Shown: one piece after another, positions 1,460-15,263 of the stretch | How the letters are laid out: the number at the start of each line of letters is the position of its first letter | Numbering within the stretch: position 1 is the first letter of the stretch | Source: an uncultured Rikenellaceae bacterium | GTDB taxonomy: Bacteria; Bacteroidota; Bacteroidia; Bacteroidales; Rikenellaceae | NCBI GenBank assembly: GCA_944326815.1 | Contig: CALVFI010000014.1 | Span: 186,001 to 250,000, forward strand | Length of the DNA stretch: 64,000 bases | Direction of reading: 5' to 3' | The notes under the pieces: generated by a model | What the model saw: only the letters and a program-made list of their open reading frames with translations | The model's database searches: none | Told to the model about the DNA's origin: nothing | Program-made: the position numbers and the translations under genes

Positions 1460-2791
1460 TTATAATTCAATCGGTTGGTTACAATAGAAATTGAGCAGCT
1501 TGATCGATAATACGGCTTGGTATTTGGCTTGCAGTTGCTCCATTTGAGCCGAGAGGTAGTTGTTTTTCTCGGTAAGCAGTTCAACGGTGTTTTTCATTCC
1601 CTCGTCGAATTGGGCACTCACCAGATCATAGCTGATTTTGGCCGATTTCACCTGATCCGAGGCTGAAAGGTAGCGGCTCTGGGCCGATACGGCATCCTGA
1701 TAGAGTGATTCGACCGTTTTCAACAGGTTTTTCTCCGTATTGAGATAGTCGATCTCCGCCTGTTGGGTCTGGAGTCGTGCCTGGGCTATGGAGGAGCGTG
1801 CCTTGCGGTTGCTGAAGATCGGGACGCTGATGGTGATGCCGGCGCTTTCGTTCAATTGATTGTTCAACTGGTTGTAGAAAGAGTAGTTCGAGCCTGAATA
1901 GTTTCCGGTTCCGATTGCGGCATTGGCGGTGATGGTCGGGAGCTTCTCGGCCGTGGCGATTTTTTCGCCGACTTCTGCGGATTGGATGTTCAGTTGGCTG
2001 CTTTGTACCTCCGGTAACCAGGCCAGGGCGCTGCTGTAAACGCTGGCGACGGAGGGAATGGCGGCCATTACCTGATCATCGCCTAATTCCGGGAAATCCA
2101 CCTCGAACGGTTCATCGAGACCCAGTTCCAATAGTTGCTTGAGTGTCAGACGAGCCTGCGCGAGTGTGTTTTCACTTACGGTAAGTTGATAGCGGTCGCT
2201 GCTGAGTTGCGACTCAATTTGGGCGTAATCACTTTGCGAGATAGAGCCCGCCTCGTAGAGAGCTTTCGACCGGACGAGTTGTGCTTCGGAACTTTCGACC
2301 GTTTGTTGGTTGATCTTTACCGACTCGTTGGCATAGAGAATATCGAGATAGGCTTGTGTGACGGCAATCTCGATGTCGTTCTGAGCCGTTGCTACATTGA
2401 GAGAGCTGCTTTGTGCCGCAATTTGCTGTTGTTTGACGGTATTGGCCAGTTTGCCTCCTCCGTAGAGTGTGACATTGGCATTCAGGGCATAGCTGCCCGA
2501 GTAGGTGCCGTTGGAGGAGTAACTGCCATCCTCATTCTGTCGTTTTTCATTGACAAAATTCTGTCCGGAGGAGAATCCGAGCGATGGAATCCATTGGGCT
2601 TTGGCTTCCTGCAGACTCACTTCGGTACTTTGTTGTGTGATTAGTGAGGTTTGTACCTGGAGGTTGTTTTCGCGTGCATAATCGATGCACCGGCGGAGTG
2701 TCCATTTTCCGGCGGCGTCTTGTGCAGTAGCTGTTGCCATCAACAGGCAGCAAGCGACCGATACGAATGCAGATTTGATTTTCCCTGTCAT
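1460..2791 (-). CDS. TolC-family outer membrane efflux protein
   Basis: 443-residue TolC-like protein with a cleavable signal peptide (MTGKIKSAFVSVACCLLMAT ending TAQ) and two repeats of long alpha-helical OEP domains separated by strand segments such as NANVTLYGGGKL and AGITISVPIFSNRKA. The reading frame is open further upstream to 3031, but the ATG at 2791 was chosen because a signal peptide starts exactly there and a promoter-like TAGATTTG lies 30 bases upstream. It is the first gene of the efflux operon and would form the outer-membrane exit duct for the adaptor and ATPase that follow. Confidence 0.9.
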   Translation of the reverse strand: MTGKIKSAFVSVACCLLMATATAQDAAGKWTLRRCIDYARENNLQVQTSLITQQSTEVSLQEAKAQWIPSLGFSSGQNFVNEKRQNEDGSYSSNGTYSGSYALNANVTLYGGGKLANTVKQQQIAAQSSSLNVATAQNDIEIAVTQAYLDILYANESVKINQQTVESSEAQLVRSKALYEAGSISQSDYAQIESQLSSDRYQLTVSENTLAQARLTLKQLLELGLDEPFEVDFPELGDDQVMAAIPSVASVYSSALAWLPEVQSSQLNIQSAEVGEKIATAEKLPTITANAAIGTGNYSGSNYSFYNQLNNQLNESAGITISVPIFSNRKARSSIAQARLQTQQAEIDYLNTEKNLLKTVESLYQDAVSAQSRYLSASDQVKSAKISYDLVSAQFDEGMKNTVELLTEKNNYLSAQMEQLQAKYQAVLSIKLLNFYCNQPIEL

Positions 2792-2981: not shown

Positions 2982-5783
2982 TTAGAAGGTAAGATTTGCT
3001 TGCATAATGAAAGTACGCGGAGCAGAAACATCCATCGGACGGATAGAATATTCTTCGTTCAACAGATTGTTTACGCTAAATTGGAATCTTACGTTATTTG
3101 TTACTTGAACTCCTGCCCGTACGTCCATTACGAAATATCCATTGTTCATTTTTTCCCAATACCCTTTTAGGTCGCCGAACATCAAATAGCGCACATAATC
3201 CATGATTTCTGGCTTTGCTTTGGGCCGTTCATCCGCGAGGAAGTAATCTACGGCCAAAGTCTTGCTTTTCCATCCGAGGTTTGTACCGAGAGTGAGTCGT
3301 TTCCACTGCAGGTCGAACACCCCTTTTACGGAATGTTTCTGGCGATATTTCAGGTATTTCGAGTTATTCGATTTCTGTTTCATCTGTAAAGGATCGGTAT
3401 AGGCATCCTCAATGGCGTTACGCTTTTTGTAGTTTACATCTTCCGGCTCGGTATAGACATATCCGATGTTGTAGGTCAGTTGTGTATGAGGATTAATTTC
3501 GCAGATACCGGTCAACGACAGATCCACGCCGTAGATACGCGCTTTGTCTACATTGAAGAACTGTGCGCCTATACCTGGCATATTCCCATTGAGTATCATA
3601 TCAACCACTTGTTTGAGGTTGCTGACGTAATCGTAAGGAGGATTGGTATTGAACAAGCCGATGTTGAATTCGATCATATTGTCGTATTCGGTATAGAATC
3701 CGGCGGCATCGAAATAGCCTTTGAATGGCCCGAACATGTATCCTTGTTTGAATCCGACCTCTACGTTATAACCACTCTCTGCTTTCAGGTTCGCATTGGG
3801 GAATGCTCCGATGCCTCCGATGTCCTTGCGGATAAACTTCTCGGTGATAGAGGGATAGCGGTAGCCTTGTCCGAACGAAGCACGGATAAAGCTGGCTTCG
3901 GCCAACTGATAGTTCAAACCGGCGCGCAGAACCGGTTTCATGGGGATATTTTTTCCGAATACCTTGGTTTCTGCCTCGCGGTAACGGTCATCGACACGAT
4001 AGTATTCGAAACGGGCTCCGAGCGACAGGTTCAGACGGTCGAAGAATTTGTCGTCATATTGAAAATAGAGTGCTGCATTATCACTTCTGTGCTTGCCGTT
4101 GAAGCTTGAGTTGATATACATATGTTCGTAAGTAACTCCCGCTGTGATCTGGCCTCCGCGGTCGAAACCTTTATTGAATTGGTAATCGAAATAGTATTGG
4201 GAGATACGATCGGGATGGATCAATGGTTCGGGTGCTGTTTTGTTCGGGTTAAGGAATAGATTTAACACGTCGTTGGTGTTATGTACCAAGGGAAGGCGTC
4301 CCATTGTCCAGGAAACGAGGTCCATGTAATCGGCCGGTTTGGCATTGGGGAAGAAGTGATTTCCTACGCGTTTGATCGTGTTGATCAGGTTGTCGTAATT
4401 CCCGTTGATGGCATCCAGGGCGGGAGGAACCAATGAGGCAATGATGTTCGGGTAGTCATTGATCAGTTCGGGAATGGACGTCGTGTAGTTGAATCCCATG
4501 TTGTCGAGAATCTCGAACAGGGATTTATCCGTGGTATGAGTCAGAATGTTGTCTGAAGCGAAATAGACACGGCTTTTGATTCGATGAGAGGTCTTGTTGG
4601 ACGAGTTGTAGTAGTTGATAAACGGATCGAGGTAGAATTGATTGCCCTGACGTGACATATTGGTAAGGGGCGACTGCCGGTAAGCCTCTTCCGGCGAACG
4701 CCAGAGGAAAACGTCGGCGGCCTCGTCCGACATGAAATTAATATTGGCTCCGTAATTGAGCCCTTTGATCGTGGGGTTGTGATGTGTTACGTTGCCTCCT
4801 ACCCGGACGCGCTTGTTGAAACCTCCTTCCTTGTACCCCTCGTCGGTGAAGAGGTTCAGAGCTCCGGATACGTCCCAGTCGCCGATTCGCCGTGCGTGCG
4901 ATACATCCAGACCATTATACATTGGATTGCGGACGCCGGAGAGGATGGTCTTGCGCATGAGTGGCTCTACTTCGTATTTTCCTTGTTTCCAGAAGGTCCG
5001 GTCCCACCAGATGTAACTTTCCTTGTCGGGATTGCCGTATACACCCATGTAGGCATTGACGCGAGTGACGGGATCGGCGCCCGGACGGGAGGTGCGGACA
5101 TTGATCAGACCGTTGAGGGCGGATGAACCGTACAGTACGGAGGAGGCTCCTTTGATCACCTCCACCTGTTCCACATTCTCCATCGGGATGGTGTTCCAGT
5201 TAATTTCACCGCCATCGGGCGAGAGTATCGACATGCCATCTACCATGATGAGGCAACGGCTGCCCACACCGTAGGTCCAGCCGCTTCCGCCACGGATGGT
5301 AGGTTGTTTGTCCACTACATCCACTCCTGAGATGTTGTTGAGTGTCGCACGCAAATCGGAGGGATTCTGCTTGAGTACATCTGTGGATTTGAGTACGTTC
5401 ATCGAGACGGTAATATCGCTCAGTTTCTGGCTGAAACGACCGGCACTGACGACGACGGCGTCCAATGCACTTGAATTCGGTTTCAGGTAAATATCTTGTG
5501 TGTAAACTTCTTTTTTCTCAATGACTAACGGTACGTTTTTGGTTTCGTATCCGATAAAACTGTATGTTAGCATAATGCCACCTTCCGGAACAGTGATTTC
5601 ATAATATCCCTCGTTGTTGGATACCGTTCCTTTTGGGCCGGTTTTATCGGTATAGTAAATGCTGACTCCGGCCATCGGTGCATTTTTGTTTCCTGCATCG
5701 TATACATACCCAATCACTTTTTGACCTAGTACGTTTTGAGCGGCCAATAACAAAATCAGTGCGATAAATATGTTTTTTTTCAT
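2982..5783 (-). CDS. TonB-dependent outer membrane receptor
   Basis: 933-residue receptor. Signal peptide (residues 1-20, ending VLGQ), a carboxypeptidase-regulatory-like domain of about 90 residues (VIGYVYDAGNKNAPMAGVSI onwards, with SFIGYETKNV), then a plug domain (DAVVVSAGRFSQKLSDITV; RGGSGWTYGVGSR; VEVIKGASSVLYGSSALNG) and a 22-strand-type barrel ending in a terminal phenylalanine (MQANLTF). The length and plug resemble siderophore, heme or cobalamin receptors more than SusC, and no SusD gene lies next to it. It follows the DUF4925 lipoprotein gene by 30 bases and probably shares its transcript. Ligand unknown; iron or another scarce micronutrient is a guess from family only. Confidence 0.92.
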   Translation of the reverse strand: MKKNIFIALILLLAAQNVLGQKVIGYVYDAGNKNAPMAGVSIYYTDKTGPKGTVSNNEGYYEITVPEGGIMLTYSFIGYETKNVPLVIEKKEVYTQDIYLKPNSSALDAVVVSAGRFSQKLSDITVSMNVLKSTDVLKQNPSDLRATLNNISGVDVVDKQPTIRGGSGWTYGVGSRCLIMVDGMSILSPDGGEINWNTIPMENVEQVEVIKGASSVLYGSSALNGLINVRTSRPGADPVTRVNAYMGVYGNPDKESYIWWDRTFWKQGKYEVEPLMRKTILSGVRNPMYNGLDVSHARRIGDWDVSGALNLFTDEGYKEGGFNKRVRVGGNVTHHNPTIKGLNYGANINFMSDEAADVFLWRSPEEAYRQSPLTNMSRQGNQFYLDPFINYYNSSNKTSHRIKSRVYFASDNILTHTTDKSLFEILDNMGFNYTTSIPELINDYPNIIASLVPPALDAINGNYDNLINTIKRVGNHFFPNAKPADYMDLVSWTMGRLPLVHNTNDVLNLFLNPNKTAPEPLIHPDRISQYYFDYQFNKGFDRGGQITAGVTYEHMYINSSFNGKHRSDNAALYFQYDDKFFDRLNLSLGARFEYYRVDDRYREAETKVFGKNIPMKPVLRAGLNYQLAEASFIRASFGQGYRYPSITEKFIRKDIGGIGAFPNANLKAESGYNVEVGFKQGYMFGPFKGYFDAAGFYTEYDNMIEFNIGLFNTNPPYDYVSNLKQVVDMILNGNMPGIGAQFFNVDKARIYGVDLSLTGICEINPHTQLTYNIGYVYTEPEDVNYKKRNAIEDAYTDPLQMKQKSNNSKYLKYRQKHSVKGVFDLQWKRLTLGTNLGWKSKTLAVDYFLADERPKAKPEIMDYVRYLMFGDLKGYWEKMNNGYFVMDVRAGVQVTNNVRFQFSVNNLLNEEYSIRPMDVSAPRTFIMQANLTF

Positions 5784-7213: not shown

Positions 7214-8050
7214 ATGAATCAGAAGTTTCCTGATGTCGATATGCCGATTGATTTTGTCACAGGAGTCGACATAACGGAAGAGATACTGAATCTCTATCGC
7301 TTTCCATGCCGTTTGAAAGCGGGGATTTTCGTATTGTGTTTGGAGGGGGAATTGCGGGCGATGATTAATTTATCGGAATATCGGATAGTGAAGAATGATT
7401 TCATTACACTCGCTCCTGAGAGTATCATCCAATTTTATGAGACGTCGGAAGATATTAAGGTGTGTTTTGCAGGATTTTCTTCCCATTTTTTGAACAATTC
7501 GAGTCAGCTGAAATTGAAATTCGAATTTGTTCCGACAGTTATGGAGTCTCCGGTAATCAGTCTCCGTCCTGATATAGCCGATATTTACAAAGATTATTTC
7601 TCCCTGATGAAAAAGGCATTTGTCTGTAATCGTTTGGATAATCCGGAAATAGTTCGTTGTATCCTCAATTCGTTATTAGAGGGGGTGCGCGGTTTTTATC
7701 GGGAGGAACCTAAAGATAATAGGCTATTGAGTCGCAAGGAAAATATTTGTCGGCAATTGGTTAAGTTGGTGATGCAACATTTTGCGACAGAACGCAAAGT
7801 GTCGTTCTATGCCGATCTGTTGCACATAACTCCTCAGCATTTGAGTGTTACTGTGAAGCAGGCCAGCGGAAAGACTGTGTCTGATATTATTGCTGAAGTA
7901 GTCATCATGGATGCCAAAGCTAAATTGAAATCGACGGATATGACAATTCAAGAGATCTCTTATTCGCTCAGTTTTCCCAATGTGTCGTTTTTTGGAAAAT
8001 ATTTTAAACGTTATGTGGGAATGTCTCCAAATGAGTATCGTCGAAGTTGA
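7214..8050 (+). CDS. AraC-family transcriptional regulator
   Basis: 278 residues. The N-terminal half is a cupin-like sensing domain (residues about 30-150, FVLCLEGELRAMINLSEYRI). The C-terminal 100 residues form the two-helix-turn-helix AraC domain, with VSFYADLLHITPQHLSVTVKQ as first HTH and a second ending FFGKYFKRYVGMSPNEYRR, the classic AraC signature. It is divergent from the DUF4925/TonB operon across a 158-base region and is the obvious candidate regulator of it; it also precedes the peptide/fimbrillin operon by 226 bases on the same strand, which is the other possible target. Confidence 0.9.
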   Translation: MNQKFPDVDMPIDFVTGVDITEEILNLYRFPCRLKAGIFVLCLEGELRAMINLSEYRIVKNDFITLAPESIIQFYETSEDIKVCFAGFSSHFLNNSSQLKLKFEFVPTVMESPVISLRPDIADIYKDYFSLMKKAFVCNRLDNPEIVRCILNSLLEGVRGFYREEPKDNRLLSRKENICRQLVKLVMQHFATERKVSFYADLLHITPQHLSVTVKQASGKTVSDIIAEVVIMDAKAKLKSTDMTIQEISYSLSFPNVSFFGKYFKRYVGMSPNEYRRS

Positions 8051-8276: not shown

Positions 8277-8447
8277 ATGGAGAAACAGATGAAATTGAAT
8301 GAGAGTACATGCGTGAATACCGTGTCTGGTGAAGCATGTTCGCAGAAAGAACCTTATGCTGCTCCGGTAATCGAGGTGGTAGATGTAAAGGTGGAACAAG
8401 GATTTGCTACTTCCATGCCGTCGTGGGAAGATCCGCAGCCGTGGTAA
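8277..8447 (+). CDS. 56-residue unknown peptide, Bacteroidales small-peptide type; candidate exported or modified precursor
   Basis: Short gene, ATG at 8277 to TAA at 8447. No signal peptide; the first half is polar with two cysteines (C12, C21). The second half has a patterned segment YAAPVIEVVDVKVEQGFATS (residues 27-46) followed by MPSWEDPQPW. From memory, short Bacteroidales proteins of the form Y-x-x-P-x-x-E-V-x-x-V-x-x-E-x-G-F-A-x-S with an acidic/aromatic tail are common near fimbrillin-like genes and are usually annotated hypothetical. The tail holds Ser, Glu, Asp and two Trp. It precedes the fimbrillin-like lipoprotein by 36 bases and would be co-transcribed. Function unknown; a precursor for the convergent PqqD/kinase/ABC cassette is one hypothesis, and a leader or accessory protein of the lipoprotein is another. 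Confidence 0.72.
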   Translation: MEKQMKLNESTCVNTVSGEACSQKEPYAAPVIEVVDVKVEQGFATSMPSWEDPQPW

Positions 8448-8483: not shown

Positions 8484-10655
8484 ATGAGAATGATATATTG
8501 GATGATGGCTGCTGCTGCGACGGTGTTGGTGGCAGGTTGCCAGAAAGAGGGTGAGAGTACGGTCAAAAAGGATGAAGGGGCATTCCGTTTTGAAGTTGCG
8601 GCAAAAGATTTCTCGGCACGTACGGCTCTCGGTGAAGATGGAAAGACGGTAACGTGGGTGGCTACCGATGAATTGGGTGTATGCGGTGTTTCGGGAGGAG
8701 TATTTTCCGGTAACCAAAAGTTTACCACTTCGAGTGAAAATATTACTCCGGATGGAGTCAGCGCTACATTCTCGGGCGATCCGCTGGTTGCCGGCGATTA
8801 TGTAGCTTACTATCCTTATGATGCCGCAAAGAACGGTTCGCTGGAGTTCACGTTGCCCGAGACGCAGACACAACAAGTGGATACGCGCGATCATGTGGGC
8901 GAGCACGACGTGTTGGTATCCGATCCGGTGAGTGTTTCGGATGGACAATTGTCGGCCAATCTGGTCTTCAACCGGTTGCATGCGCTGTTGCGTCTGTCTG
9001 TAAAATTGAATGGTGAGACCTCCGGGGTGACCGTTTCGAAGATTACCCTCGCATCGAATGACGGTTCAGCCATCTTCAACCGGACGACGACCTGCTCGGT
9101 AGAGGATGGGAAAACGGTCTTTACTTCGAGCAATCCGACCAATGCCCTCTCCGTGGAGGTAACCGGTTCGCAGGAGTTGGCCTCCGACGGGATGTTCCAC
9201 ATCTGGATGCTTGTCCCCGAGGTGAACTACGATGGGCAAATCGATGTTACTGTGACAACCTCCATGGGTACCTATACCTTTACGAAACCCTCAGCCAATT
9301 TTGTACGTGGCCAGAGTTATTACATCACCAGCGATCTGGGCGAAGGACTCGTGCTGCCGGTGACTGTCGCTTCGGTTGAGGATTGGAATAAGGCGGTGGC
9401 TGCCGTCAATGCTGCAGGGCAGCCCGCTACGTTTGTCATTACGCAGGATCTGACTCTGCCGGCTGATGTGCTCTTCCCAACGGTGCCTCTGACGCTGAGC
9501 GGTTCCGGTACGCTGACACTGACTCCTGCCGTTCCCGAATCGGCTACGGTTGCCGGGGATGTTACGAGCAATACGGCGCTCGATCCTTCGCAGTTGAATG
9601 CCGAGGTGACGGTTCCGGATCACCTGACGGTTGCTTGTGGTTTGGCGGTCAATAACGGTATCATTCGCGGCACGAATCTCACGCTTGCCGATGGCGGATC
9701 GCTTGCCGGTCCGGGGCGTCTCTCCCTTTCCGGGACATTGACGGTGGCTTCCGGGGCATCCGCTTCCGTAGCGGCAAATATGGTTGTGGGCTGCAACACC
9801 CTGACCAATGGCGGTACGCTGGCCAACAACGGTGCATTGTATTATAACGCCGGCACCCCCGGTACCGTAAACTCCAACAGTGCCGTTCTGACTACGGGCG
9901 TCTCCGTAACCGGTCCGCAGTTGCCCTACTCCGGATTTGACCAGTGGTATGAGTCTCAGGTTTCTTATATGGGCTTTATGAGAGGGACGGGTCAGTTTAT
10001 CGGTGAAAAGTCGGGTTCCAATAATGTATGGGCGTCGGGGAACGGTTCTGAGAAAAGTAGTGTTGGAGGCATTGCTGTATCTGGGACCAATCCTACCCAG
10101 CCGGCCGAATCAGGGAAAATACATGGCGGTGCCGGGGCCTTGAAGATGATCTCTGAACATGTGACGATAGTGATTGTAAGTAAATTTGCTGCCGGTAATG
10201 TTTTCCTCGGCAGTTATGATAAAACAAATACTACCGGTGCGGAAATGACTTTTGGAATACCTTATACCTTGCGTCCGTTGGCTTTGACCGGGTATTTCGA
10301 CTATACTTCCGGATTGATTGATTATAACAATAGCCAAAAAGTGGATAATCCATCCGTACAGGATCAGTGGGATATTTATGTGGCATTGACGACGAAAGCC
10401 TACTCCATCAATACGGATGATGATTCGACCTATCCTCAACTTGAGACGGATGATGCGGTTATTGCCTACGGTCGTATTACCAGTCCGGTTTCTACGAACG
10501 GATATCAGAAATTCCGGGTAGAGCTCAAATATAAAAATATGGTTGAAGTGCCGACTCATATTCTGATTACCGCTTCGAATAGCGTAGATGGCGCAGCCTT
10601 TACGGGTTCTACGTCGAGCGTGTTGTATTTGGACGATCTGCAGTTGGAATTCTGA
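8484..10655 (+). CDS. Fimbrillin-like lipoprotein with beta-helix-like middle and C-terminal PCMD domain
   Basis: 723-residue surface lipoprotein. The ATG at 8484 is preferred over a TTG six bases earlier. Lipobox LVAGC with Cys19. Residues about 28-285 resemble the fimbrillin/Mfa-like family (FSARTALGEDGKTVTWVATD, then PLVAGDYVAYYPYD, ending FVRGQSYYITSDL). Residues about 290-475 are Gly/Thr/Leu/Asn-rich with repeating short strands (LTLADGGSLAGPGRLSLSGT), suggesting a beta-solenoid. Residues about 480-723 match the PCMD pattern (SGFDQWYES, AGNVFLGSY, FGIPYTLRPLALTGYFDYTS, YLDDLQLEF), a putative carbohydrate-binding fold common in Bacteroidales surface lipoproteins. A cell-surface adhesin or glycan-binding role is inferred. 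The domain mix is unusual. Confidence 0.85.
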   Translation: MRMIYWMMAAAATVLVAGCQKEGESTVKKDEGAFRFEVAAKDFSARTALGEDGKTVTWVATDELGVCGVSGGVFSGNQKFTTSSENITPDGVSATFSGDPLVAGDYVAYYPYDAAKNGSLEFTLPETQTQQVDTRDHVGEHDVLVSDPVSVSDGQLSANLVFNRLHALLRLSVKLNGETSGVTVSKITLASNDGSAIFNRTTTCSVEDGKTVFTSSNPTNALSVEVTGSQELASDGMFHIWMLVPEVNYDGQIDVTVTTSMGTYTFTKPSANFVRGQSYYITSDLGEGLVLPVTVASVEDWNKAVAAVNAAGQPATFVITQDLTLPADVLFPTVPLTLSGSGTLTLTPAVPESATVAGDVTSNTALDPSQLNAEVTVPDHLTVACGLAVNNGIIRGTNLTLADGGSLAGPGRLSLSGTLTVASGASASVAANMVVGCNTLTNGGTLANNGALYYNAGTPGTVNSNSAVLTTGVSVTGPQLPYSGFDQWYESQVSYMGFMRGTGQFIGEKSGSNNVWASGNGSEKSSVGGIAVSGTNPTQPAESGKIHGGAGALKMISEHVTIVIVSKFAAGNVFLGSYDKTNTTGAEMTFGIPYTLRPLALTGYFDYTSGLIDYNNSQKVDNPSVQDQWDIYVALTTKAYSINTDDDSTYPQLETDDAVIAYGRITSPVSTNGYQKFRVELKYKNMVEVPTHILITASNSVDGAAFTGSTSSVLYLDDLQLEF

Positions 10656-10758: not shown

Positions 10759-11265
10759 TTAGGGCTGTTGGTTGCGACGAAGGGTTGGAATGTGTCGATA
10801 CAGGGCTCTCCGGAGTCGGCGCAAAGGGCGGAACAGGGCAAGGCGGAACAGGGAGCGGAAGCGCCAGCCGGCCGTGCAGACAATCTTCCGTTTCTCCGGG
10901 GTGGAAATGAGTCGGACGACGGCAAGGATGTCCGTTGGATTGGGAAATTCGTAAACCTGCCAGAGATTGTCGCCGCGCGTTGTGAGACGATGGCCGGTGC
11001 GGATGATCCGGTGCAGGAGGTGCCCGCCGCCATACCGGAACAGGATGATGTCGCCCCGATGCAGCTGGGAAGAGGCCCCTTGGGGGGTGTTGTCCGTCAC
11101 ATAAGGATGCAGTTCTACCTCCGTGCGTCCGTTCCGCAAGGCAGGCTCCATGCTGGTTCCATATACCCGAATACGGACTGAGCGTCCTTCTGCGAGCAGT
11201 CGCTCTATTTCGGCGAAAAATACGGCGTTGCCGATCGTTCTGGAGGTGACGGATTGCTGTTCCAT
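10759..11265 (-). CDS. S24/S26-type peptidase (signal-peptidase-like, Ser/His form)
   Basis: 168 residues. The ATG at 11265 is chosen because the open frame above it overlaps the kinase-like gene. Motifs in order: YGTSMEP with nucleophile Ser38, GDIILFRY (residues 71-78), LLHRII with His85 where bacterial signal peptidase I has its Lys box, and TRGDN (96-100). Ser/His with RGDN is the arrangement of SipW/ER-type signal peptidases. Unlike those, there is no N-terminal membrane helix; instead the C-terminus is strongly basic and amphipathic (residues 136-164). Last gene of the cassette, 13 bases after the HprK-like gene. A cytoplasmic peptide-processing role, for example removing a leader, is inferred from context. 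Confidence 0.85.
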   Translation of the reverse strand: MEQQSVTSRTIGNAVFFAEIERLLAEGRSVRIRVYGTSMEPALRNGRTEVELHPYVTDNTPQGASSQLHRGDIILFRYGGGHLLHRIIRTGHRLTTRGDNLWQVYEFPNPTDILAVVRLISTPEKRKIVCTAGWRFRSLFRLALFRPLRRLRRALYRHIPTLRRNQQP

Positions 11266-11278
11266 GGCTGAAGTGTGT

Positions 11279-12184
11279 TTATTGAGGACCGAATATGGCG
11301 GAGAAGGCCGCTTCGGCTGCTTGACGGTTGGGCAGACACTCGAGTCGGTAGGTGCGGACATTTCGAATCGTGTCGGAGAGAATGGTGCAGATCCGGTCGG
11401 AGAGCAGGGGGTCACGGGCGAATGCCGGAGGGCACGAGGGGTATAAGGCTCCGAATGCGTGTACGATCGGAAGTAGTGAGATCCGATTGTGGGGTGCCTG
11501 GCAGAGTCGGACCACGGCAGCGAGCGGAAAGCGTTCGTTGCGGAAGCAGGCGGTTTTGCCGCTCCACGGCGAGCCGTACACATAGGGAACACCCTCTTCT
11601 ATGCGCAGAATGGGACTGTCGTCGTTGAGCAGTGAGGATCCGGGAATATACTCCTGCCAGAGACGTGTATGGGTGCTTTTGCCTGTTCCGGATTCTCCCA
11701 GGAAGAGAATGGCTTTTCCTTGCCAGACGATGGTCGAAGCGTGAATGGGAATGGCTTTCTGAAAAACTCCCGCCAGGCCGTAAGCGGTCCAGAGACCAAA
11801 GCGGAGCATGGTTGCGTGGCTGGGGAGGGAGGCCTCGATGAGTGGATTGCCGGGTTGGAAGCGAAGATTGAAAACGTCGCCGTGTGGAGAGGTCATGGTC
11901 AGGAAATAGCCGGAGGGTTTCTCTGCCTCTGTATGCTGTTCGGTAGGCTGTGTGCGTCCGAAACGGCATTCGATGCTGTCGAACGAGAAGTCATATAGGG
12001 CATTCGCTTGGGGAATGGAAAAGCTATCGCTGCTCTGAAAAAGGAGAAAAGGTTGCTGGGCTTCGGAAGTACGGAACGTCTCGAAGTCGGGGGCCTCGCG
12101 GAGTAGTGCGATTGCTTTGGCACCCGTGACGCAGAGGTCGAATCCTCCGATGCGGAAAGTGAGTGTCGGGATGGATGCGGTCAT
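11279..12184 (-). CDS. HPr-kinase/PEPCK-like P-loop protein (HprK-related kinase)
   Basis: 301 residues. Walker A GESGTGKST at 163-171, followed by the acidic NDDSP at 187-191 and GSPWSGK at 204-210, the signature order of the HprK-like group that shares its fold with ATP-PEP carboxykinase. HprK proper is a two-domain HPr Ser-kinase/phosphorylase; this one has a different N-terminal 140 residues. Homologues in lasso-peptide clusters (ThcoK, PadeK) phosphorylate the C-terminal serine of the precursor peptide. The ATG at 12184 overlaps the exporter stop as ATGA, indicating translational coupling. The substrate here is unknown; an exported or modified peptide is the best guess. Confidence 0.82.
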   Translation of the reverse strand: MTASIPTLTFRIGGFDLCVTGAKAIALLREAPDFETFRTSEAQQPFLLFQSSDSFSIPQANALYDFSFDSIECRFGRTQPTEQHTEAEKPSGYFLTMTSPHGDVFNLRFQPGNPLIEASLPSHATMLRFGLWTAYGLAGVFQKAIPIHASTIVWQGKAILFLGESGTGKSTHTRLWQEYIPGSSLLNDDSPILRIEEGVPYVYGSPWSGKTACFRNERFPLAAVVRLCQAPHNRISLLPIVHAFGALYPSCPPAFARDPLLSDRICTILSDTIRNVRTYRLECLPNRQAAEAAFSAIFGPQ

Positions 12185-13890
12185 GAGGGGTCGATTTCGA
12201 TGATACGGTCGCAAAGTGCCAGAGAGGATTCCCGATGTGCGATGATCACTATGGTGAGCATACGACAGGGATTCGAGAGCTCTGCGATGGTACGTGTGAT
12301 TTCATGTTCTGTCTCATTGTCGAGGGCTGAAGTCGCCTCGTCGAAGAAGAGAACCTCGGCTCCTTTATAGAGTGCTCGGGCGATTCCGATTCGTTGTCGT
12401 TGTCCGCCGGAGAGCCGACTGCCGTTCTCCCCGACGGGAGTGTCGATTCCCTCAGGCAACTGGGCGACCCATGAGGAGAGACATACCTGATTGAGAATTT
12501 GGTGGATTTTTTCACGGTCGATATCACGTCGGCCGAAAGCGATGTTCTCGGCCAGGGTGCCGTCGATGAGGAGAACCTCCTGGGGAACATAGCCGCATTG
12601 CTGCTGCCAGGCTTGGCGTGTATCGGCAGTAAGAGGGATGTCGTCGATCAGAATCTCGCCCTGTTGGATCGGATAGAAACCCAGCAGGAGGTTGAATAGC
12701 GTCGTTTTTCCGCCACCTGACGCGCCTCGGATTCCGATGCGTTCCCCTTTGCGTATGGTTAGAGAGCAGTCTCTCAGTACGGGGTGATGGCCGTCGAACG
12801 AGAAGGTAAGTTGTTCTGCCCGGATTTCTCTCTGGAAAGGGAGTGGAGTGCTCTGGTTGCAGGAGTCTGTATGGGTGGAAGATGATCTCTCAGAGGCTTC
12901 GGACTCAAGTGCCGTGCGGACGATTTCTGCCGTATAGAGGTTGTTTTTGATTTGTGCCCATCCCCCCAGCAGAGAGCGTACGGAGGGCAGCAGTCGGATA
13001 GCGGCGATGGCGAATACGCCGAACAGCATGCGCAAGGAGCCCCCCGGGACAGTGAACAACACCAGCAGTGTGATACCGATTGCCAGACCGGTCTCTGTCA
13101 GAATGGGAGGAATGCGGAGCAGGGTTTCGGTCCGTTCGTCGAGCCGTGAGATGTCGTACAATCCTTTTTGAAAACGGTCGCGGATCAGGGGCATCGCCTC
13201 ATTAATCTCTACTTCAGCATACCCCTTGAGAGCCTCCTGTACGGTTTGTGTCTGACGTACACGCAGGCGGTTTCCCTCTTTGCCGTAATCTGTGAGGCGT
13301 CTTTTGACAATTGCGACGTAGATCCATACCAAAGGCAGGAAGCAGAGCGGCAGGAGTAGTGCCACACCCGGGGCATAGAAACCTAACGCGATTAGCAGTA
13401 TGAGAATGAAGGCTGCCTCTCCGGCCATGGACAGTAACGGTGCAAGCACCTTTGTTACGAAGGTGTGGCACACGTAATTGATCTCATGTGATAATCCGGA
13501 GCTGTTCTGTCGCTTGATGAAAAGCAACCCTCGATGGTGGTAGGAGGTGAAGAGAGCGTCCGAATAGTATCGGTACAGGGAGAGAAGATAGCGGCTTTGC
13601 CTGCGTGAGATCCATAGTGATAGGCCATTCTTCAGCAAGATAATGCCGAGGACTCCGATGCAGAGTACGATGGCAAAGGTCTCTTTCGACCTGAAATCTC
13701 CCAAGGTGTATAATTTTTCCAGCCAGGGGCTGCTTTCCAGGCCATCGTTATTCAGTACCAGCAGAAGTATCGGCAGAAAAGCGGCCAATCCCGCCAAGTC
13801 GAGTACCGCCCTTAAGGGCGCTGCTGCGACCATGCGTCGTCCCTGAGCTCGAAAGGCAGGTGGTATGAGGGATAGCAGCCGGCAGGTCAT
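12181..13890 (-). CDS. ABC exporter, fused membrane and ATPase domains (peptide/lipid exporter type)
   Basis: 569-residue half-transporter. Six predicted membrane segments in residues about 20-300, then an ATPase domain with Walker A GASGGGKTT near 390, signature LSGGQRQR, Walker B VLFFDEATSALD and switch IIAHRE. Position 5 of the usual G-x-S-G-S-G-K-S/T-T motif is Gly instead of Ser, a mild variant. No C39 leader peptidase domain is present, so any leader removal must be done by another protein, fitting the S26-type peptidase two genes on. Starts 3 bases after the nucleotidyltransferase stop. It would export the product of the cassette. Confidence 0.9.
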   Translation of the reverse strand: MTCRLLSLIPPAFRAQGRRMVAAAPLRAVLDLAGLAAFLPILLLVLNNDGLESSPWLEKLYTLGDFRSKETFAIVLCIGVLGIILLKNGLSLWISRRQSRYLLSLYRYYSDALFTSYHHRGLLFIKRQNSSGLSHEINYVCHTFVTKVLAPLLSMAGEAAFILILLIALGFYAPGVALLLPLCFLPLVWIYVAIVKRRLTDYGKEGNRLRVRQTQTVQEALKGYAEVEINEAMPLIRDRFQKGLYDISRLDERTETLLRIPPILTETGLAIGITLLVLFTVPGGSLRMLFGVFAIAAIRLLPSVRSLLGGWAQIKNNLYTAEIVRTALESEASERSSSTHTDSCNQSTPLPFQREIRAEQLTFSFDGHHPVLRDCSLTIRKGERIGIRGASGGGKTTLFNLLLGFYPIQQGEILIDDIPLTADTRQAWQQQCGYVPQEVLLIDGTLAENIAFGRRDIDREKIHQILNQVCLSSWVAQLPEGIDTPVGENGSRLSGGQRQRIGIARALYKGAEVLFFDEATSALDNETEHEITRTIAELSNPCRMLTIVIIAHRESSLALCDRIIEIDPS

Positions 13891-13893
13891 GAT

Positions 13894-15015
13894 CTATACC
13901 TTTAGAAAGTTTTTCGGATAGCGTATATGTGTTTGAATTGAGAGTCGGAGACGGGTGGCCAATCCGCCTTTGCGTCCGTATACGGCATGGTATTTCCACT
14001 GTATGGCACAAAAACGACGAATTTTGAAGCAGATGATTCGTAGTGGATTTCGTGACTGAATCGACCGCTTTTCGTGCAGAATGCTGTCCCAAATCTTTGC
14101 AGCCAGTTCTCGATCCGGAGTGTTCGTATTGGGTAAATATTCGACTGGTAACCCTAACTGTTCAGTAGCGAGCATCCCCAAGGCATTTGCAATGCGATCT
14201 AGGCCGGTATCCTGTAAAATTTTTTGCCAGGCTTGTTTGTCGAATTCGTCTCCGTGTACGAAGAGAAATCGTGCCCAGTCGCAGAGATGGCGAAGCCGGA
14301 TGTCGCAGGTGGTGAAGTGCGTGGCTGTATGTATCAGCAGGAACAGTGCGTTGAAATCGGCAGAGGGGAGATAGGGTTCATGCGTGTGGCTCTCCTCGTT
14401 CGGAAGCCGTGGAAGTTGTTTTTTGTCCTGCAGCAGAATCTGAAGTCTCGGCTCCAGCAGCCGATTGACGGCGAAGAGACGGACATCCAGAAAGTGACGG
14501 TGATTTTCTACGATGATTCCATCATATACGAAGGATGAGTGTTTGTCGCCTCTTTTTACGGAACTGAAATGTTCGGTTGCCAGTTGCATACCCTTCTCGT
14601 ATTGTCCGAAAAGCCAGAGGTCGATGTCGCCGCTCTCGCGATGGTCGGGAACCGAAAAATCCAGGGCTTGGCCGACCCCTTTGAGAACCATTGTGTCGAC
14701 TCCATGGCGATGGAAAAATGCCGTTAGTTCGCGGGTTGCAGTGAGGTAGTGGTTGAAACGCTTCTCTGCAGCAGCAGCATTGATGCCCCATTGTAGTTTC
14801 AATGTACGTGGCGGCTGCAATGTCTCCGGGAGACGCATCATTCCGTCGAATGCAATGGCTTGTACTCCTTGTCCTACGGCAGCGGCATAGATTTTCTCCC
14901 ATTCGGAAACCGTCAGTCCATGAAATGCCCCCTCTTCGGATCTTCCCCAAAGAGCGTTTCTTAACAAAGCGACTAAGGCCTTTTCCGATTGGGTTATGGT
15001 TCCAGAATGTGGCAT
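13894..15015 (-). CDS. Nucleotidyltransferase of the NTP_transf_5 type
   Basis: 373 residues. The ATG at 15015 lies inside the end of the PqqD-like gene (22-base overlap). The core is a Pol-beta-type nucleotidyltransferase: MVLKG at 109-113, then HRESGDIDLWL, where the D-x-D pair (D130, D132) would bind metal and nucleotide. The remaining C-terminal two thirds is helical (HTATHFTTCDIRLRHLCDWA region). Such proteins accompany PqqD-like and HprK-like genes in RiPP and capsule-type clusters, including the paeninodin lasso cluster, where their reaction is not firmly known. Here it probably acts on the same substrate as the kinase-like protein. Confidence 0.82.
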   Translation of the reverse strand: MPHSGTITQSEKALVALLRNALWGRSEEGAFHGLTVSEWEKIYAAAVGQGVQAIAFDGMMRLPETLQPPRTLKLQWGINAAAAEKRFNHYLTATRELTAFFHRHGVDTMVLKGVGQALDFSVPDHRESGDIDLWLFGQYEKGMQLATEHFSSVKRGDKHSSFVYDGIIVENHRHFLDVRLFAVNRLLEPRLQILLQDKKQLPRLPNEESHTHEPYLPSADFNALFLLIHTATHFTTCDIRLRHLCDWARFLFVHGDEFDKQAWQKILQDTGLDRIANALGMLATEQLGLPVEYLPNTNTPDRELAAKIWDSILHEKRSIQSRNPLRIICFKIRRFCAIQWKYHAVYGRKGGLATRLRLSIQTHIRYPKNFLKV

Positions 15016-15263
15016 GCGATCAGTTGATTGGCCCAGTCCTGTGCATCGTGCAGGGCGGTTGATGGATCTGTTTCGAATCTTTCCGTGAGTAGTGCGGCGA
15101 TATCGGTGACGGTAAAGTCCCGTCCTGCGAGGTTCTCCCAAAGCCATGCGGCCGTCGGATTCAGCGATACGATGCGTGTCATGTCGGCGTGACATTCATT
15201 TTGCATGATGACAATCTTCTCGCCTGCGATTTCACGGATTTTATATTCCGGTTTCAGTTTCAT
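14994..15263 (-). CDS. PqqD-like protein (RiPP recognition element type)
   Basis: 89 residues covering the complete PqqD fold: an N-terminal beta-hairpin (IREIAGEKIVIMQN), the helix with TRIVSLNPTAAWLWENLAG, a helix-turn-helix-like part (TVTDIAALLTERFETDP) and a last helix (DAQDWANQLIACHIL). PqqD-like domains bind leader peptides and present them to modifying enzymes. First gene of the minus-strand cassette; its stop overlaps the nucleotidyltransferase start by 22 bases. No PQQ biosynthesis gene is nearby, so a role in peptide recognition is favoured over PQQ synthesis. Confidence 0.85.
   Translation of the reverse strand: MKLKPEYKIREIAGEKIVIMQNECHADMTRIVSLNPTAAWLWENLAGRDFTVTDIAALLTERFETDPSTALHDAQDWANQLIACHILEP

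Follow-up and report, generated by a model that had tools for sequence, protein, structure and literature searches.

A putative trans-acting peptide-modification cassette of Bacteroidales and a family of short, dispersed candidate precursor peptides mostly paired with lipoprotein genes

The window considered here, 64,000 nucleotides of an uncultured Rikenellaceae bacterium (GenBank assembly GCA_944326815.1, contig CALVFI010000014.1, positions 186,001 to 250,000), carries five minus-strand genes at positions 10759-15263, which an earlier sequence-only reading had taken for a cassette of the type that makes ribosomally synthesised and post-translationally modified peptides (RiPPs). Their arrangement on one strand, with overlaps of 22 and 4 nt and gaps of 3 and 13 nt, is borne out by the coordinates: the PqqD gene (15263-14994) shares 22 nt with the NTP_transf_5 gene, whose ATG lies at 15015; 3 nt separate the latter from the ABC gene, starting at 13890; the kinase ATG at 12184 overlaps the end of the ABC gene at 12181 by 4 nt; and the S26-like gene (ATG 11265) lies 13 nt from the kinase gene. 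On the opposite strand, 2.3 kb beyond the cassette interval, an open reading frame (ORF) of 56 amino acids (8277-8447, +) ends 36 nt before the ATG of a lipoprotein gene (8484-10655, +). This 56-aa ORF is the probable substrate of the cassette and belongs to a family of short peptides which apparently has not been described before.

The assignment of three cassette proteins by Pfam is firm. They are the PqqD-like protein (14994-15263, -; PF05402, 54.7 bits), predicted to be the RiPP recognition element (RRE) that binds the YxxP leader block of the peptides; the NTP_transf_5 nucleotidyltransferase-like protein (13894-15015, -; PF14907, 112.6 bits), a proposed decorator of the phosphorylated residue; and the MsbA-like ABC exporter without a peptidase domain (12181-13890, -; PF00005 (ABC_tran), 112.3 bits), which has several hydrophobic segments by hydropathy and whose top NCBIfam model was MsbA, at 251.7 bits under its cut-off of 602. 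When the PqqD profile was compared with the PDB, the lasso RRE TfuB1 (6jx3, E 1.1e-5) was the sole match at E<=0.1. No radical SAM gene is present among the five.

The kinase (11279-12184, -) did not match HprK in Pfam, and its NCBIfam matches lay far under the cut-offs: HprK_rel_A 19.6 bits of 200, ScmC 19.5 of 125, and the third model of the HPr-rel-A/SynChlorMet set (TIGR04352, TIGR04249, TIGR04248) 19.6 of 100. The window protein contains H148, G163, G166, G168, K169, S170, D188 and D189, all invariant in an alignment of 14 members, and this H-G-G-G-K-S-D-D set agrees with the BsfK motif given in the available text of PMC10368454. The AlphaFold model (mean pLDDT, the predicted local distance difference test, 92.2) gave modest best matches in the PDB, to PEPCK (TMq about 0.4) and then HPr kinase (about 0.3). 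The protein is placed as HprK-like, and predicted to be a Ser/Thr peptide kinase of PEPCK/HprK-like fold, because the weak model matches, the eight residues of the lasso-kinase motif and the modest fold similarity coincide.

The fifth protein (10759-11265, -) stays under the Pfam and NCBIfam cut-offs when taken alone. A profile of 16 members matched signal peptidase (SPase) IB (E 8e-5) and SEC11 (SEC11C/A, E 2e-4) in the PDB, and S38, M39, P41, H85, R86, G98 and D99 are invariant in the 16 homologues. Ser, His and Asp are the catalytic residues of S26B/Sec11-type signal peptidases, and S38, H85 and D99 correspond to them. The model (pLDDT 88.5) resembled most closely the LexA C-domain and SpsB (TMq 0.3-0.4, one of the matches at E<=0.001). 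The protein thus shares with the S26 signal peptidases (SPase IB, SEC11) the conserved Ser, His and Asp and a related fold; it differs from them in lacking a hydrophobic segment that could serve as membrane anchor (in the window protein the hydropathy mean over 19 residues peaks at 0.76) and in being encoded inside a RiPP-like cassette. Its fold matches include SipA (PDB 4n31, rank 11, E 3e-3), titled a signal-peptidase homologue essential for pilus polymerisation; given the fimbrillin-like partners described below, this match may be more than chance.

The distribution of the cassette was studied in 101 genomes of the family to which the window belongs, and the kinase, counted at E<=1e-5, was found in 39. 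Around the kinase of 39 loci, the window included and some truncated by contig ends, the S26-like gene was present on the same strand within 8 kb in 34, an ABC gene in 32, the PqqD gene in 25 and the NTP_transf_5 gene in 4. Among 34 selected genomes the PqqD protein was detected in 24/24 kinase-positive and 0/10 kinase-negative ones, four of the 24 (G000, G036, G044 and G051) having supplied sequences to its profile; NTP_transf_5 at E<1e-20 was detected in 23/24 and 1/10, with weaker matches in four more negatives and that of the kinase-negative G020 just past the cut-off. Since PqqD was recovered genome-wide in all 24 and NTP_transf_5 in 23, neighbours missing from a locus often lie elsewhere in the genome. 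In the best 80 of 356 confirmed loci, many of them from metagenome-assembled genomes, the gene set reaches Phocaeicola, Bacteroides, Prevotella and relatives and one Sphingobacterium; 16 of the 35 lower-ranking among these 80 have the kinase, S26 and PqqD genes only.

Two outcomes that the sequence-only reading had named as contrary to a peptide cassette did not appear. Homologues scattered without their neighbours were not seen; the genes recur together in many relatives, and the grouping of the five therefore exceeds chance. Likewise, no recurrent capsule or lipid partner was noticed by eye among the unannotated ORFs of 6 of 38 family loci and of 10 loci in a set of 80. At one family locus only, a gene near the cassette ABC gene (L048:1356-2249, -) is presumably RmlA-like, a function of nucleotide-sugar synthesis. 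Two further features of individual genomes were recorded. One genome (G394) holds two HprK-like loci (L334, L335) and a third PqqD gene that lies, together with an NTP_transf_5 gene, close to a peptide gene (G394:C1:967980-970946), which suggests duplicated or specialised cassettes, and in Phocaeicola sartorii (L193:7992-9640) the match to the ABC gene is split over two frames that overlap, from sequencing error or decay.

A substrate was first looked for among short ORFs beside the cassette, and by eye none recurred in 6 of 38 family loci. For this reason the 56-aa ORF of the window was used for a genome-wide search. In 12 of the best 80 of 356 loci a peptide gene does lie within 10 kb of the kinase gene on either side (E<=1e-4), for instance in Phocaeicola sartorii (L193) and P. 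faecalis (L198). On its own, at E<=1, the 56-aa sequence found matches in 43 of the 101 family genomes, often several times and on many contigs; these were 36 of the 39 kinase-positive genomes and seven others, five of the seven at E>0.1. A profile built from 26 relatives (A1) found at E<=0.05 matches in 39/101, with 1-13 dispersed matches in each. The precursors thus lie mostly outside the cassette, dispersed and in most cases with a lipoprotein gene, and the arrangement looks like a many-substrate system working in trans.

The peptides, only about 30-60 residues long, are built of a conserved block and a variable tail. The block and neighbour counts exclude twelve of 105 distinct peptides (E>1e-3) and frames longer than 260 aa, and the neighbour counts also exclude loci shorter than 3000 bases. 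The block Y-x-[AST]-P-x-[IVL]-E-...-E-x-G-[FI]-A-x-[ST], 20 residues, was found in 88 of the 93 distinct peptides at E<=1e-3; conservation at Y, P, E/Q, G and S/T is by construction of the regular expression used, which left the spacing free, and the length was nevertheless 20 in 88/88. The sixth residue is V in 35, I in 34 and L in 9 of the 88. When S/T was not demanded, residue 20 was S in 82, T in 6 and A in 1 of the 93, four giving no fit. The five peptides that missed the expression have Ser at position 19 (L134), 20 (L109, L270) or 21 (L110, L111), and in the peptides of another order it stands mostly at block position 21. Past the block the information content falls from 3.96 bits, a value raised by the expression, to 0.62; the tails have a median of 18 residues, are net negative in 88/88 and contain Trp in 64. 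In the window peptide the block extends from Y27 to S46 (8355-8414), followed by the acidic tail 47-56. The peptide profile had no match in the PDB, and scanning peptides with Pfam and NCBIfam gave no convincing model, apart from a weak paeninodin match discussed below. Short ORFs with Y..P and a later Ser occur at the limit of the profile (L358:17327-17569, +; also L112, L128 and L129), which suggests further divergent precursor subfamilies.

Purifying selection was observed among relatives of the window peptide. In six related pairs sharing members, the pooled proportions of synonymous and nonsynonymous differences (pS/pN) were 0.53/0.13 for the block and 0.48/0.14 for the tail; single pairs differ, one tail being unconstrained (0.37, 0.32). 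Because pN is well below pS in both parts, the peptide is very probably translated and the tail matters.

The occurrence of the peptide follows that of the kinase closely. Of the 101 family genomes, 38 have both, one the kinase only (G077, 69% complete), one the peptide only (G029, 54% complete) and 61 neither (Fisher P 1.6e-25). Every one of the 26 genomes that supplied the peptide profile has the kinase; the other 75 divide into 12 with both, 1 and 1 with one each, and 61 with neither (P 6.4e-12), and both P values overstate independence, the genomes being related. Among genomes at least 90% complete the kinase occurs in 25/58 and the peptide in the same 25. G022, 99% complete, lacks kinase and peptide, though many of its congeners have both. 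This near one-to-one co-occurrence, together with the lasso-type YxxP motif of the leader, supports the sequence-only reading, in which the five genes modify a peptide and include no lasso protease, as the best interpretation.

The peptide genes are accompanied by lipoprotein genes. Eighty of 90 are followed on the same strand within 250 nt by an ORF with a lipobox, at a median gap of 23 nt, or 78 after two spurious matches (L275, and L299 at 6031) were removed by eye; three of the ten peptide genes without a lipoprotein gene sit at contig ends. In an earlier and simpler test the downstream neighbour was a lipoprotein gene in 68/79 cases, the upstream neighbour in 12/68 and background genes in 55/375. 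In another order of the class a lipoprotein gene follows 14 of 15 peptide genes. The lipoprotein of the window (8484-10655, +; lipobox Cys at residue 19) has a fimbrillin-like domain (Mfa_like_1, PF13149, 59 bits against a Pfam cut-off of 27) and a PCMD domain (PF13201, 132 bits). When 70 partners were scanned with Pfam at E<=0.001, eight of the 78 longer than 1000 aa being left out, the families found included fimbrillin-like (14), BACON (7), LRR_5 (4) and PCMD (2). A profile iterated from the fimbrillin-like N-domain of the window protein matched 63/78 partners and 42/2574 other ORFs. We know of no precedent for precursor genes paired with genes of fimbrillin-like lipoproteins. Two side observations concern the surroundings of these pairs: in the window the peptide gene is immediately preceded, on the same strand, by a gene for an AraC-type regulator (7214-8050, +), whose product may control the pair, and at one locus of another order (L329) two related peptide-lipoprotein pairs stand back to back, in divergent orientation, at 2413-2628 (-) and 3113-3295 (+).

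Peptide and lipoprotein vary together. The median similarity of the tails was 0.63 in 11 pairs with closely homologous lipoproteins, 0.24 in 43 pairs with weaker homology and 0.08 in random pairs; for the block, which starts from a higher base, the values were 0.83, 0.58 and 0.52. Such co-similarity is expected of inherited pairs under constraint. It would also suit mature peptides that are secreted as linear signals or bacteriocin-like agents, the paired lipoprotein being receptor or immunity protein, and one short variable peptide for each lipoprotein and the ABC exporter of the cassette point the same way. Against this explanation, which we consider unlikely, up to 13 peptide matches occur in one genome, and Pfam identifies the partners in part as fimbrillin-like, BACON and leucine-rich-repeat proteins, and none of the 15 families listed resembles a receptor or immunity protein.

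Preference is given instead to the following proposal, which builds on what was observed directly (the gene family, its block, the co-occurrence with the cassette, the pairing with lipoprotein genes and the selection on block and tail). We regard it as rather probable that one trans-acting cassette phosphorylates, decorates, cleaves and exports many dispersed peptides, each paired with a mostly fimbrillin-like lipoprotein, a scheme of which the chemistry and function are what we infer. By its homology and the leader motif, the PqqD-like protein would act as RRE and bind the YxxPx[IV]E... block of each precursor. The HprK-like kinase would then phosphorylate the precursor, most likely at the block-final Ser/Thr (S46 in the window peptide), and the NTP_transf_5 protein may add a nucleotide or a sugar to that phosphate. 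The S26/Sec11-like peptidase would take off the leader, probably near G-[FI]-A-x-S, and the ABC protein would export the acidic core. To judge from the gene pairing, the mature peptide may work with the surface lipoprotein encoded downstream, as subunit, ligand or plug.

Several of these steps draw on the phosphorylated lasso peptides. According to the available text of PMC10368454, the lasso leader motif YxxPxL occupies positions -17 to -12, and the HprK-like lasso kinase BsfK phosphorylates core Ser3, accepts Thr and not Tyr, and is stimulated by its PqqD protein. The YxxPx[LIV] of the block is this lasso-type motif, with V or I mostly replacing L. With its Tyr placed at -17 the block-final Ser/Thr becomes core residue 3, as in the BsfK case, and is for this reason the first candidate phosphosite. 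Cleavage directly after A-x-S, in the manner of the -3/-1 rule, was ranked lower rather than dropped, as the S/T pattern of residue 20 fits a phosphosite better than a -1 site. A phosphosite in the tail was also considered: 9 of 88 tails have no S/T, compared with 10.8 expected from composition, and no selection for a tail hydroxyl is seen. In the accessible text on pseudomycoidin (PMC9266682), the hexoses on phosphoserine are ascribed to the nucleotidyltransferase homologue PsmN, acting either directly or via a host enzyme; of the phosphorylation and nucleotidylation proposed by the sequence-only reading, the second need therefore not hold. For leader removal one would look first to the S26-like protein, as it is the only protease seen in the cassette and the lasso B2 protease was found in none of 28 kinase-positive genomes.

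A number of observations weigh against the proposal, besides the relatedness of the family genomes. The available text of PMC10368454 states that exchange of the Tyr or the Leu of the BsfA motif singly for Ala left phosphorylation intact, and that previously reported lasso phosphorylations were on the C-terminal Ser; in the block peptides a C-terminal Ser is not conserved. NTP_transf_5 was not found in the kinase-positive G065. The iterated fimbrillin profile has possibly drifted, Pfam alone giving 14/70, and it matched 0/10 lipoproteins of the other order, where Mfa_like_1 exceeded its cut-off in one of ten, another falling just under.

The wider samples bear on the proposal in both directions. 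In a sample of the phylum (n=395) the kinase E values form two groups, five genomes at <1e-60 and ten at 6.8e-22 to 6.3e-11. A broader peptide profile (A6), to which G000 and G356 had supplied sequences, gave for four of the five strong-kinase genomes E values of 5e-15, 2e-8, 2.5e-6 and 1.2e-5, and 0.0056 for the fifth (G782); eight further genomes followed at 0.0098-0.048, seven of them in frames of at least 149 residues. The cut at 0.006 was made post hoc, G782 lies close to this background, which starts at 0.0098, and no lipoprotein gene follows its peptide gene. The independent test is provided by G394 and G747, from another order of the class, with 9 and 8 peptide matches. In a sample of the order (n=295) the kinase was found at E<=1e-10 in 40 genomes, 18 of them strong (E<1e-37), and the peptide at E<=1e-3 in 12, with 8 shared; 10 of the 18 strong-kinase genomes are thus without the peptide at this threshold and 4 of the 12 peptide genomes without a strong kinase. 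The latter are G265 (99% complete), G337 and G391, with no kinase at E<=1e-10, and G138, with a weak kinase only. On re-testing nine strong-kinase genomes that lacked a confident peptide with A6, six had no match at E<=0.1, and the matches in the other three (0.0028-0.073) overlapped those of three genomes with no or weak kinase (0.027-0.099). Seven genomes with a kinase but no confident peptide were also inspected by eye at their cassette loci; a candidate was seen only in G277 (L358:17327-17569, the ORF mentioned above), the other six showing none. Kinase and peptide are therefore strongly linked within the family, and the link extends to G394 and G747. It is incomplete in more distant families, where either the peptides have diverged or the link is not universal.

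The likeness to lasso clusters raises the question whether the products are phosphorylated lasso peptides, made with a protease and cyclase that are encoded elsewhere or have diverged. The YxxP leader motif, the TfuB1-like RRE, the lasso-kinase motif and the NTP_transf_5 protein would all fit, and among five peptides scanned one has a weak match (E 0.013, 15.2 bits of 27) to NF033524, the model of the paeninodin precursor. The available accounts of phosphorylated lasso clusters (paeninodin, pseudomycoidin and Bsf of Bradymonas) likewise describe a PqqD-type RRE (B1), an HprK-like kinase, an ABC exporter and YxxPxL, and in some a nucleotidyltransferase (N). The present system differs in its S26/Sec11-like peptidase, which stands in place of the B2 protease, and in its many dispersed precursors, most with a lipoprotein gene. 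The 28 kinase-positive genomes gave no PF13471 protease at E<=0.001, in a search whose control was positive in 2/14, over the cut-off in 1. A lasso core would have a ring-forming Asp/Glu at position 7-9; the tails are acid-rich, with no single position beyond the block at which an acid is constant. An Asn-synthetase-like cyclase was not found by Pfam among the five cassette proteins or five scanned neighbours, a genome-wide cyclase search not having been made. The system resembles part of the phosphorylated lasso pathway and by the protease test is not a lasso system, and we hold the lasso explanation to be quite improbable. Least probable of all is that the short ORF, lying directly upstream of the lipoprotein gene at a median gap of 23 nt, serves as its regulatory leader (translation-coupled or an attenuator) and that the cassette has a different target. 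Conservation of the amino-acid block spans two orders, block and tail are under purifying selection in the pooled pairs, and the presence of the peptide tracks the cassette.

The trans-acting peptide-modifying system preferred here also differs from other systems with which it may be compared. The HPr-rel-A system and the SynChlorMet cassette likewise combine an HprK-like kinase with a PqqD-like protein; the matches of the present cassette to their models are the weak ones given above, far under the cut-offs, and no radical SAM gene stands among its five genes. In the prochlorosins and other RiPPs one set of enzymes acts in trans on many dispersed precursors with a shared leader and variable cores. 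Here the enzymology would be kinase-based, the cassette has no lanthionine synthetase and the precursor genes are paired with lipoprotein genes. The fimbrillins of type V pili (Fim, Mfa) resemble the many partner lipoproteins that carry Mfa_like_1 or a related N-domain; to our knowledge they have no short peptide partner or peptide-modifying cassette. Linked by co-occurrence to putative modifying enzymes, the short peptides with their conserved leader and variable core have the architecture of RiPP precursors in general; a modification of them is predicted. Among the papers listed by searches of an open-licence library none described this cassette-peptide system and none treated fimbrillin together with HPr kinase, and in the available text of a 2023 survey of Bacteroidales RiPPs (PMC10352776) the terms nucleotidyltransferase, S26 and fimbr occur 0 times.

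It is tempting to go further and see here a new RiPP class of Bacteroidia, in which a lasso-related cassette that lacks both protease and cyclase of the lasso pathway would modify in trans as many as about a dozen precursors per genome. The products would be linear, acidic and phospho-decorated, and each would be dedicated to one fimbrillin-like lipoprotein as a component of it, for surface display and not as an antibiotic; for this extended form the case seems to us evenly balanced. With the data presented, a cassette recurring across Bacteroidales gains a likely family of substrates, a predicted site of modification and a partner, and tailoring enzymes of lasso type become connected with fimbrillin-like lipoproteins on the surface of gut bacteria. 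Together they suggest an overlooked peptide-modification system of gut Bacteroidales. If the proposal is true, it would mean a chemical decoration of these bacteria that has been overlooked, plausibly because the precursors are very short and mostly encoded away from their enzymes.

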